DNA of 41,547 nt from Akkermansiaceae bacterium (GTDB lineage Bacteria > Verrucomicrobiota > Verrucomicrobiia > Verrucomicrobiales > Akkermansiaceae): NCBI GenBank assembly GCA_029242935.1, contig JAQWSX010000003.1, positions 1 through 41,547 on the forward strand, in the 5' to 3' direction. The notes below the pieces were generated by a model. The model was not told the origin of the DNA. It searched no databases and was given only the letters and a program-made list of their open reading frames with translations. A program made the position numbers and the translations under genes. Of the stretch, positions 33,021 through 36,942 are shown one piece after another; position 1 is the first letter of the stretch, and the number at the start of each line of letters is the position of its first letter.

Positions 33021-33549
33021 AGAACTATTTTTGTATATCGTAGGCGAAAGTCAAGAGGTCGAAATGACCAATCTCTGACAAACATTCACCCACACAAAAC
33101 ACCATTCTTTGATGAGCATCTCTATTCCAGCAACTTGGAATCAGAACAAACATGAATTTTTCGAACCTCTCGACGACTCCTGCACACCTTCCATCGCCCG
33201 GATTTCCTAGGAGCTTCGGTCCAGAAATCCCAAAACGAAAAAAAACGCCGGTCCTCAGACTGACAAGTGGCATCAAGAAAAACCACTGTAAGAATTTCAT
33301 TTTCCCAAGGATCCGCCAACCTCACCCCCCCCGGACTGGGGGAATCCTATCCCAATCAATTCTAGCAACCTACAATTTAAATGATCGCCAAAAACGCAAC
33401 GATTTCGCGCTTAGGTGAAAAACCCCCTTGCATAACTGCAATTCTGTAATCGAGAGTGAAGATGTCGACATCTTCACAATCCATTCAAAATATTTATCTT
33501 TGCGAGGATGATTTCGGAATACAGAATGGCTTGGTCACAAGACGTATCT
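33021..33549. other. Intergenic region between rex and ptsH
   Basis: About 500 bases have no convincing gene. Short open frames on both strands overlap each other, lack motifs and are not supported by a ribosome binding site. The region holds a 22-bp palindrome near the ptsH end and a C-run/G-run hairpin (33325-33342) of unknown role. It should contain both promoters. Confidence 0.6.
33456..33477. promoter_or_regulatory. Perfect 22-bp palindrome upstream of ptsH-ptsI (candidate operator)
   Basis: The left arm GTGAAGATGTC is followed immediately by its exact reverse complement, with no spacer and no mismatch; the flanking bases do not pair. It lies 73 bp before the preferred ptsH start and in no gene. 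Perfect dyads of this size in a promoter region usually bind a dimeric regulator; the regulator is unknown. Confidence 0.55.
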
Positions 33550-33825
33550 ATGCCTCATAAAGATTTTACTATTACCAATCAACTTGGAATCCATGCTCGG
33601 CCCGCCGCGCAATTCGTTAAAATCGCGAACAGTTTTCCATGCGACATTCGCGTGGAGAAAGACGACGATGAGGTCGATGGAAAAAGTATTCTTGGATTGA
33701 TGATGTTGGCTGCGGGGCATGGTTCCGTGATCTCCGTGACCACGGAAGGTGACCAAGAAGGCGAAGCACTTGCCGCCCTCGGGGACTTGATCGAAAGAAA
33801 TTTTGAAGAAAACGCAACTGCTTAG
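33550..33825 (+). CDS. ptsH: Phosphocarrier protein HPr
   Basis: HPr carries phosphate from PEP via enzyme I to sugar-specific EII proteins or regulatory partners. With the ATG at 33550 the phosphorylated histidine in GIHARPAAQF is exactly His15 and the KSILGLMM serine is exactly Ser46, the canonical numbering. Upstream in-frame ATGs at 33508 and 33526 would add a leader of 14 or 8 residues, and no clear Shine-Dalgarno decides. The 91-residue length fits HPr. Ser46 and its neighbours are kept, so regulation by an HPr kinase is possible but not shown. It is followed by ptsI after 69 bp. Confidence 0.92.
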   Translation: MPHKDFTITNQLGIHARPAAQFVKIANSFPCDIRVEKDDDEVDGKSILGLMMLAAGHGSVISVTTEGDQEGEALAALGDLIERNFEENATA

Positions 33826-33894
33826 AGTCGGCCTTACCCTCATTTCCTTGTGATTGACCGAACGAGCCCAACTCGTCAGGCTCTCATTCAGTAA

Positions 33895-35661
33895 ATGGCG
33901 GAAAAACCACCAGAAGAAGAAGTATTTTGCGGCACCCCAGCGTCCCGTGGAATCGCTTTTGGTCCAGTTCATGTCGCCGCCCGAGGTTTTTCCGCACCCA
34001 ATGTTTACGAGATTCCGGAAGATGGGCTCAAACTCGAAAAAGGTCGGCTCACAGCTGCCTTTGATATCACGAGACAACAGCTTGCTAGTCTAAAAACAAA
34101 AATCGATGAAGTCGCTGGTGGCGATGAAGGTTTGGTTTTCGAAGCACACGGCATGGTTCTCGACGATCCGAGCCTGCAAACAAAGGTTGAACTCGCCATT
34201 GAAAACCGAAAGCAAAATGCCGAGTATTGTTTTTACGCAGTAATGCAGACAGTCCTAGAGGCTATGCGCCGCATCTCCGACCCCTACCTCCGTGAGAGAA
34301 CGATCGATATCGAGGATGTTTCCCAGCGGGTGCTGAGAAATTTCGAAGCTTCCACCAATATCATAGGCCTAGATCATCAGCACCTTTTCGTCGCCCATGA
34401 TCTGACACCGTCGGATACCGCCTCAATGGACCGCAGTAAATTACTCGGTTTTGTAACCGAGGAAGGGAGCGTAAATTCGCATACTGCAATTCTTGCACGG
34501 GCCTTGGGCATTCCTGCGATTGTCGGACTGGGAAAGGTCGTTGTTGAAATCACGGCCCTCGCCCCCGCCATTGTAGATGGCTACAGCGGAAAATTCATTG
34601 TCCATCCTTCGGAGGAAACCACCAAGTATTACCGTTCCCTCGCGAATCGAAAGCGCGAGCAACGCAAAGCACTCGAGGAACTTCGCGATCAGGAAAGCAC
34701 GACCAAGGACGGTCGACATATCACCCTTTCAGCGAATATCGAATTCACCCACGAACTCGATCTTGTTCAAGACAACCGGGCTGAGGGTGTCGGGCTCTTT
34801 CGAACCGAGTTCTTCCTCCTCGAAACTGGGTATCCGCCCACTGAAAAAAATCAAACAGAAACCTATACCGAGCTGGCCAAACGAACCGGCTCCCATCCTG
34901 CGATTATTCGAACTCTTGACTCCGGAGGCGATAAACTATCGGTGGAACCTCTCACCGAACCAGAACCTAACCCATTTCTGGGATGGCGGGGTATTCGGGT
35001 CTCACTAGATCGGCCTGATTTTTTCAAGGAGCAACTTCGAGCTATTCTTCGCGCGAGCGCTCACGGCAAACTTGGCATGATGTTCCCTTTCATTTCTGGT
35101 GTAAGTGAGATCCAACGCTGTCAGGCTCTCGTCAAGGAGTGCATGGCCGAACTGGAGGCCGAAGGCTGCAAGTTCGATGCCGATCTCGAAATTGGGGCGA
35201 TGATCGAAATCCCATCCGCCGTTCTCGTAGCAGATGAGATCGCTCAGGAGGTCGACTTTTTCTCTATCGGAACGAATGATTTGATTCAGTACACCGTAGC
35301 TGTCGATCGTATCAACAACCGTGTTGCCAAGCTTTACCGCTCCACCCACCCAGCCGTTATTCGTATGATTAAGATGACAACTGACGCCGCTTCTCGCGCT
35401 GGTATCTGGACCGGGATTTGCGGAGAAATGGCAGCCGATCTAAGCCTTACTCCGCTGCTTGTAGGGCTTGGCGTCGACGAGCTTTCAGTCGGGCCTCATG
35501 AGGTCGCACCTGTTCGAAAAGCCCTCTTGTCCGTTGATTTTGGCGAGTGCAAGGCACTCGCCCAGAAAGCTCTTGCGATGCCGACCAGCGCCGAAATTTA
35601 CCACCTCAGTCATGAAGCCGCAAAAGCTGCGTATCCTGATTTGATAGATGAAGATGAGTAA
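33895..35661 (+). CDS. ptsI: PEP-protein phosphotransferase (enzyme I)
   Basis: Enzyme I transfers phosphate from phosphoenolpyruvate to HPr. The 588-residue product carries the N-terminal HPr-binding helical domain, then the phosphohistidine motif GSVNSHTAILARALGIPAIVG (His196). The C-terminal PEP-binding TIM barrel has GVGLFRTEFFLL, TLDSGGDK, GWRGIRVSLDRP, FFSIGTNDLIQYT and GICGEMAADL with the active-site Cys. Length and motifs match ordinary PtsI. It forms an operon with ptsH. No EII gene is nearby, so it may serve remote permeases or a purely regulatory PTS. The 3' end is convergent with the Rrf2 gene, 10 bp apart. Confidence 0.96.
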   Translation: MAEKPPEEEVFCGTPASRGIAFGPVHVAARGFSAPNVYEIPEDGLKLEKGRLTAAFDITRQQLASLKTKIDEVAGGDEGLVFEAHGMVLDDPSLQTKVELAIENRKQNAEYCFYAVMQTVLEAMRRISDPYLRERTIDIEDVSQRVLRNFEASTNIIGLDHQHLFVAHDLTPSDTASMDRSKLLGFVTEEGSVNSHTAILARALGIPAIVGLGKVVVEITALAPAIVDGYSGKFIVHPSEETTKYYRSLANRKREQRKALEELRDQESTTKDGRHITLSANIEFTHELDLVQDNRAEGVGLFRTEFFLLETGYPPTEKNQTETYTELAKRTGSHPAIIRTLDSGGDKLSVEPLTEPEPNPFLGWRGIRVSLDRPDFFKEQLRAILRASAHGKLGMMFPFISGVSEIQRCQALVKECMAELEAEGCKFDADLEIGAMIEIPSAVLVADEIAQEVDFFSIGTNDLIQYTVAVDRINNRVAKLYRSTHPAVIRMIKMTTDAASRAGIWTGICGEMAADLSLTPLLVGLGVDELSVGPHEVAPVRKALLSVDFGECKALAQKALAMPTSAEIYHLSHEAAKAAYPDLIDEDE

Positions 35662-35671
35662 GGTTCTCTTC

Positions 35672-36082
35672 CTAAATGTAAAACATAGGCTCGTCCTCAG
35701 CAGCCAGCGTTTCGAGGCTATTCTGCGCTAAAATCTGCCGACTGCTTTCACGGACGCTTTCCCAAAGGTTTCTCACAGCCACTCCGGACTCACCAGTTGG
35801 TTGGGGAATCTGCCCTAGTGCTTCTGGCTCCAAAGCCTCCACAATTCTGAGTAGACTAATATCCGCCGGAGGCTCGATGAGCTTCCAGCCCCCGGTTTTA
35901 CCACGCCGACTGGTCACCACTCCGGTTCTTTTAAGCTCATGAAGGATTTGCGCTAAAAAACTAGATGGTATCCCCTCGCTCTCTGCAATATCGTCTGCTC
36001 GAGTAACCGATTGACCATCGTGCTTTTTTGCCAGATGAACCACCGCGCGACTTGCATAATCTAATTTCTGCGAAATCCTCAC
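35672..36082 (-). CDS. Rrf2-family transcriptional regulator, CymR-like
   Basis: The 136-residue protein has an Rrf2 winged helix: RISQKLDYASRAVVHLA, then DIAESEGIPSSFLAQILHELKRTGVV, then the wing SRRGKTGGWKL. It has no cysteine at all, so it cannot hold the Fe-S cluster of IscR or NsrR. It ends in EPMFYI, like CymR of Firmicutes as I recall it. CymR controls cysteine metabolism by binding O-acetylserine sulfhydrylase (CysK) through its C terminus. The neighbour cysE, only 2 bp away and divergent, makes cysteine-synthesis control the best inference. The start is GTG at 36082, fixed by the family N terminus. Its promoter must lie inside cysE. Confidence 0.85.
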   Translation of the reverse strand: MRISQKLDYASRAVVHLAKKHDGQSVTRADDIAESEGIPSSFLAQILHELKRTGVVTSRRGKTGGWKLIEPPADISLLRIVEALEPEALGQIPQPTGESGVAVRNLWESVRESSRQILAQNSLETLAAEDEPMFYI

Positions 36083-36084
36083 TG

Positions 36085-36942
36085 ATGAAAGGAAACCACA
36101 AAGCTCCTAAAGATGCCATCCCTAAGAGTAATCTCTTGTGTGTAAAGGGGAAACCAGACCTCGACCTAGTGTGGCAAAAAATCCAGGACGAAGCTCACCG
36201 GATCTCAAGCTCCGAGCATCGACTTACCGCCCTCATGGAAGACATTTTCATTTCACGGAACTCCATCGCCTGCTCGGTAGCAGCCCGCCTCTCGCGCAAA
36301 CTGGCCCGTGAAGACATGACGCGTGATGAACTCCTTCCATTATTGCAGGAGATTCTAATCGAATATCCTGAACTCGTTTCAAGTATGGTCTCCGATCTAA
36401 TTGCGATCGATGAACGTGACCCAGCCTGCCATTCTTTGACTCAACCGCTCCTTTATTACAAAGGTTTCCTCGCACTGGCGACTTATCGGCTGGGCCACCG
36501 AATGTGGAAAAATAACCGACACGATTTGGCCTACTACTTTCAAAGTTTAGCTTCGGAGGTCTTCGGAGTCGATATCCACCCGGCCGCCCAGTTGGGCTGC
36601 GGCATCTTCCTCGATCATGCAACCAGCGTTGTGATTGGCGAAACTTCCATCGTTGAAGATAACGTCTCGATTTTACACGAAGTCACACTCGGCGGAACCG
36701 GAAAAACATCGGGAAATCGGCACCCGATCATCCGCTCGGGAGTGATGATTGGATCCGGATCCAAGATTCTCGGTCCTGTCGAAGTTGGCAAAGGTGCCAA
36801 AATCGGAGCTGGAAGTGTGGTCCTCGATGACGTAGCTCCCCACAAGACAGTTGCTGGAGTTCCGGCCGTTGTCGTTGGAACCAGCCCCTCTGAAAATCCT
36901 GCCGAGGCGATGGATCAAAGCCTTTCATGCTCCAGAATCTAG
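36085..36942 (+). CDS. cysE: Serine O-acetyltransferase
   Basis: CysE makes O-acetylserine from serine and acetyl-CoA, the first step of cysteine synthesis. From the ATG at 36085 it is 285 residues. An N-terminal helical domain (LDLVWQKIQDEAHRISSSE) precedes a left-handed beta helix of hexapeptide repeats: GVDIHPAAQLGCGIFLDHAT, VSILHEVTLGGTGKTSGNRHP and KIGAGSVVLDDVAPHKTVAGVPA. The protein ends in Ile (CSRI), and a C-terminal Ile is what docks SAT into CysK in the cysteine synthase complex. It is divergent from the CymR-like Rrf2 gene with 2 bp between starts. An upstream ATG at 36028 would overlap that gene and adds no homologous sequence. Confidence 0.92.
   Translation: MKGNHKAPKDAIPKSNLLCVKGKPDLDLVWQKIQDEAHRISSSEHRLTALMEDIFISRNSIACSVAARLSRKLAREDMTRDELLPLLQEILIEYPELVSSMVSDLIAIDERDPACHSLTQPLLYYKGFLALATYRLGHRMWKNNRHDLAYYFQSLASEVFGVDIHPAAQLGCGIFLDHATSVVIGETSIVEDNVSILHEVTLGGTGKTSGNRHPIIRSGVMIGSGSKILGPVEVGKGAKIGAGSVVLDDVAPHKTVAGVPAVVVGTSPSENPAEAMDQSLSCSRI

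Follow-up and report, generated by a model that had tools for sequence, protein, structure and literature searches.

Corepression by the cysteine synthase CysK through the C-terminal tail of a transcription factor has reportedly been described for CymR of Bacillales. In B. subtilis, CysK is the corepressor of CymR, and in a model of the CymR2-CysK2 complex the CymR C-terminus is the anchor in CysK, with the penultimate Tyr near Gly223 (PMC11487621). The serine acetyltransferase CysE inserts its C-terminal Ile into CysK, a residue that supplies ~80% of the binding energy, and the other known CysK partners with such C-termini are CymR, CdiA (GYGI) and EGL-9 (PMC12895370). The best designed CysK peptides carry an aromatic residue in third-last position and Ile at the end, as in MNYDI and MNWNI, with a value of 0.22 uM for MNYDI on StCysK (PMC9547175). 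Among the papers of an open-access library that was searched, we found no description of CysK-tailed Rrf2 regulators beyond Firmicutes.

The window, by which we mean the whole 41,547-nucleotide stretch of Akkermansiaceae DNA that was analyzed, belongs to a 3.16-Mb genome with a completeness of 85.5%, whose nearest named relatives are MAGs of Akkermansiaceae. It encodes an Rrf2-family regulator of 136 aa on the reverse strand (35672..36082, GTG start at 36082) and, head-to-head with it, a CysE of 285 aa on the forward strand (36085..36942, ATG at 36085). The regulator exceeds the thresholds of the Rrf2 superfamily in both PF02082 (104.6 bits vs 30) and TIGR00738 (96 vs 73.3). The window CysE has a SATase_N domain (PF06426, 88.7 bits) and scores 220.4 bits with TIGR01172, above the cut-off of 210.65 bits, which identifies it as a serine O-acetyltransferase; no other SATase_N protein was found in this incomplete (85.5%) genome. 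Translation confirmed what the earlier note had read at the two C-termini. The regulator (35672-36082, reverse strand) has no cysteine and ends EPMFYI, with the tail codons at 35675..35686 (reverse strand), and CysE, for which CSRI had been given, ends SCSRI, with the SRI codons at 36931..36939 (forward strand), so that it has the C-terminal Ile of a CysE that forms the cysteine synthase complex. The note's reading also presupposed a cysK elsewhere in the genome, and one is present: among six PLP-fold proteins, L033 is CysK by TIGR01139 (436.7 bits, cut-off 351), the solved structures that match it most closely are annotated as cysteine synthases, and it carries TSGNTG, QFDNPANP and GIGAGF, the known tail-contact motifs. 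The sole other Rrf2 protein found in the genome (L002:1492-1929) contains five cysteines, and its C-terminus, QASK, lacks Ile. On the far side of rrf2, an HPr-like and a PTS enzyme I-like gene, named by eye as ptsH and ptsI (33508-35672), adjoin the regulator gene, and the end of the enzyme I gene at 35661 converges on the rrf2 stop, ~10 bp away.

The tail is the most constant part of the regulator. Its last residue is Ile in 27/27 Rrf2 orthologues of the order, where the preceding linker varies in both sequence and length, and in the Rrf2 proteins of 72/72 non-redundant cysE-linked loci. Because Ile ends only 7/398 (1.8%) of the other long ORFs in related loci, this exceeds what chance would give, and the conservation of an MFYI-type tail expected by the earlier note held when it was checked. 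Across the wider orthologue set the tails are MFYI, MYYI, MYFI, MFFI, MWFI, MWHI, MFHI, EYHI, EYYI and DWVI. In an AlphaFold model of the regulator (mean pLDDT 90.5), residues 133-136 are the sole stretch under 50, and this combination of highest conservation with no predicted structure of its own is typical of a docking peptide. The CymR tail that the note had cited was also right, since CymR of S. aureus (3t8r) and of Listeria both end MFYI, identical to the window protein, while IscR of Thermincola potens ends MYYI. (The Listeria monocytogenes record, L148, is catalogued as a plasmid; at 2.9 Mb it is evidently the chromosome.) Tails of this kind obey the rules of CysK-ligand peptides, with the third-last residue aromatic and the last one Ile, and paralogue tails include NYDI and DFSI. 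The C-terminal Ile of CdiA of E. coli and EGL-9 of C. elegans is a comparable mimic of the CysE tail (PMC12895370), although these proteins and their functions are unrelated to Rrf2.

How close the regulator stands to CymR depends on the trait considered. Among solved structures, the CymR proteins of B. subtilis and S. aureus are its best relatives by sequence and by fold, and it shares with them the absence of Fe-S cysteine ligands, the MFYI/MYYI-type Ile tail (MFYI in S. aureus) and a context of cysteine genes. It differs from them in having only ~30% identity and in lying head-to-head with cysE. Membership in CymR proper was rejected: the score against the CymR equivalog NF047409 is 59.6-61.9 bits, well under the curated cut-off of 195, and in a 118-row tree the verrucomicrobial proteins form a separate clade (support 100/99), whereas CymR is placed with IscR of T. 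potens and with paralogues that contain Cys. A single clade of verrucomicrobial Rrf2 and CymR is rejected by the AU test (p 0.0069). Judged by tail, missing Fe-S ligands and gene context, the protein is thus CymR-like and, given the AU result and the missed cut-off, not a CymR orthologue. Of the earlier reading as a CymR-like regulator, the tail and the sulfur context stand, with the corrections that the protein falls outside CymR in the tree and that many Rrf2 paralogues with cysteines carry the tail too. The T. potens protein (4cic), deposited as a BadM/Rrf2 regulator and titled IscR, shares the family and the MYYI tail but falls with CymR, not with the window protein. Either the ancestor of this part of the Rrf2 family already had the tail, or the tail was gained more than once.

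Sulfur genes surround the orthologues in several arrangements. Orthologue and cysE are divergent genes in Akkermansiaceae. In the order's other families, the orthologue lies beside cysK with cysH/cysC/cysD (L021, L023, L024), or is divergent from a sulfite-reductase-like gene, cysI (L027, L029-L032), and one orthologue from the genus Akkermansia (L026) is divergent from cysK. Two members of the orthologue clade that came from the census described below adjoin cysN/cysD, and Opitutales orthologues keep MYYI, mostly without a sulfur gene within 1.5 kb. Sulfur genes were named by BLAST to queries, with the family checked for CysK, CysH, CysC, MetB and MetY; for CysI, CysD and CysN, the names come from inspection of the sequence by eye. 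The clade of the cysE-linked orthologue is mostly missing from Akkermansia genomes, with a cysK-linked member in G086, and an Akkermansia Rrf2 protein that contains cysteines and ends DYGAGI, like CysE, is encoded upstream of metY and cysK (L273:164-2995).

The two start codons of the window are separated by 2 bp (CAC TG ATG, 36080..36087, no strand assigned), as the earlier note had observed, and near-overlap turned out to be a family trait, with spacing conserved from -2 to +18 bp. Among the cysE-linked loci surveyed, mostly from Akkermansiaceae, nearly all fit one of three classes: -2, where a CATG holds both ATGs (most Akkermansiaceae), +2 in the window's genus, and 6-18 bp elsewhere. Outside these classes fall L025, L028 and L092, where the cysE start is further downstream, and L107, where the cysE frame is broken. 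Since the spacing is conserved across cysE-linked loci, both annotated starts are supported, and since the start codons nearly overlap, the leader or promoter sequence of each gene must lie in the other. For cysE, synonymous codon identity in the cysE-linked set has one peak at rrf2 codons 25-29 and another near 33-37, which is 73-110 bases upstream of cysE, in scores that are inflated by the relatedness of the sequences; orthologues not linked to cysE have their peaks at other positions. Read in the cysE direction, the consensus of the constrained region is TTGCGC, ~15 nt, TGTAA, from which the window's own genus has drifted away. We suggest that this region (codons 25-37, 35972..36010, no strand assigned) is a candidate promoter or operator of cysE embedded in rrf2. 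The earlier proposal of promoters within opposite genes is supported in part: the codon constraint lies where such a promoter would be expected, while a consensus scan for a sigma-70 promoter at the rrf2-cysE junction found none. On the other side of the junction, CysE has an N-terminal extension of ~26 residues ahead of SATase_N (36085-36165), with an A-S-x-K ... L-C pattern conserved in relatives. As this extension overlaps the expected rrf2 promoter, its constraint may act on DNA rather than on protein.

Conservation of the enzyme tail follows a different course. CysE ends in Ile at only 35/72 non-redundant cysE-linked loci and in Leu at 11 more; of the two tails, it is that of the regulator which stays constant. 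In the cysteine synthase complex of E. coli, Salmonella and H. influenzae, a C-terminal Ile peptide enters the CysK active site, as is proposed here; the difference is that the constant tail is now on a transcription factor and that CysE has lost its own in half of the relatives. Competition of the CysE and Rrf2 tails cannot be a conserved logic, because about half of the relatives lack the CysE Ile, and we rejected it as such. Nor does the Firmicutes precedent invoked by the earlier note, in which CymR and CysE both dock on CysK by their tails, hold up: B. subtilis CysE, unlike that of the window, has no C-terminal Ile, and a CysE-CysK complex is not thought to form there (PMC12895370). Firmicutes therefore show no two competing tails, and OAS (O-acetylserine) acts on CymR-CysK.

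Non-orthologous Rrf2 paralogues of the phylum failed as a tail-less control, as 38/41 of them also end in Ile, and a family-based census was therefore made instead. PF02082 searches over 59 Verrucomicrobiota genomes gave 70 complete Rrf2 proteins, of which 43 end in Ile; the third-last residue is aromatic in 32, and others end GAGI, DGI or GGGI, like CysE. Counting cysK, cysH, cysD, cysN, metB and metY in neighborhoods of up to 8 kb, a sulfur gene lies within 3 kb of 20/33 Ile-tailed rrf2 genes vs 0/27 non-Ile ones (Fisher 1.5e-7), a p value that is not phylogenetically independent because a single deep division of the Rrf2 tree largely separates the Ile-tailed from the tail-less class. Examples from the census are an Akkermansia rrf2 (GAGI) with metY-cysK, an rrf2 (DYVI) with cysHDN and an rrf2 (MFNI) with cysK. 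Outside the phylum, the tail is found in 6/6 cyanobacterial Rrf2 proteins fetched, a set that was found with a tailed query and so gives no unbiased rate, as well as in a member of the Fusobacteriota and in several Firmicutes. The cyanobacterial set includes an Rrf2 of the S. elongatus plasmid pANL and one from Pseudanabaena, which has a cysK-cysE-rrf2 operon in which Rrf2 ends MFYI and CysE ends GAGI. The tail is absent from the Rrf2 proteins fetched from Streptomyces, Nonomuraea, Paracoccus, Tistrella, Priestia and Acetoanaerobium. On pANL, cysK, epsC/cysE and the SrpI encapsulin, together with the cysteine desulfurase that is its cargo, are encoded a few kb away from the MFYI-tailed regulator (L147:1-10426), which may control this locus.

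We infer CysK binding, OAS sensing, repression and the operator position for the window regulator, which would on this proposal be a CysK-docking, OAS-relieved repressor of cysteine genes; we put the probability of this reading at roughly two in three. With ample cysteine and sulfide, and little OAS, CysK would bind the Rrf2 tail, and the complex would sit on its operator and repress the divergent cysE and rrf2. Under sulfur shortage, OAS made by CysE would build up, fill CysK and release the tail, lifting repression. The CysE of this genome, which is also Ile-ended, may be a second competitor for CysK. Because the starts nearly overlap and each promoter would lie in the other gene, one operator across the junction could govern both genes. 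Against a CysK-docking repressor, the link between tail and sulfur context rests on few independent events, since a tree-based test of the two found only 5 independent pairs and is too weak.

Descent from an Fe-S (IscR-type) ancestor would also account for a tailed regulator that lacks cluster ligands. The tail would then be an inherited dock for CysK or a desulfurase-related partner, with another signal now sensed. That CymR itself clusters with IscR of T. potens and with paralogues that carry cysteines fits such a history, as do the 30/43 Ile-tailed census proteins with at least three Cys in the cluster-loop region; the many Ile-tailed paralogues with 3-4 cysteines could be Fe-S sensors. We nevertheless consider this origin unlikely to explain the window protein, as the tail is kept in every one of its orthologues although they have no three-Cys loop, and as their neighbors are sulfur-assimilation genes, with a nifS-like gene near only 3/41 Ile-tailed loci.

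Similarly improbable is a tail that docks not on CysK but on a PDZ-like domain, on a protease adaptor or on a different PLP enzyme, or that packs against the Rrf2 oligomer. An aromatic-x-Ile-COOH end is compatible with generic hydrophobic C-terminal motifs as well, but these tails equal the CymR tail and known CysK ligands residue for residue, and the rrf2 genes adjoin cysE or cysK. Least credible to us is the possibility that rrf2 is no more than a neighbor of cysE and has other targets, with genome compaction as the origin of the start region that the two genes share. Opitutales orthologues mostly lie away from cysteine genes, as such an accident would allow; the divergent, near-overlapping starts are, however, kept across many genera, and orthologues elsewhere adjoin other sulfur genes.

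Beyond the proposed CysK-docking repressor, we are evenly divided on a broader proposal, in which a very old Rrf2 branch, present in Verrucomicrobiota, Cyanobacteria, Firmicutes and Fusobacteria, bears a CysE-mimic tail and uses CysK as the shared co-sensor of many sulfur regulators, some of them Fe-S proteins and CymR one branch among them. In Akkermansiaceae, regulator and cysE target would be locked together by overlapping starts, with promoters in opposite genes. That the tail is kept in nearly every relative suggests that CysK-based control of sulfur genes reaches much further back, and is much more widespread, than has been recognized. Should the tail have the same meaning here, OAS sensing through CysK would be an ancient and general control of sulfur assimilation. 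Such regulators could then be predicted simply from an Rrf2 C-terminus of the form aromatic-x-Ile or GxGI, and it would become testable in many phyla whether CysE, regulator and OAS compete for one CysK pocket.
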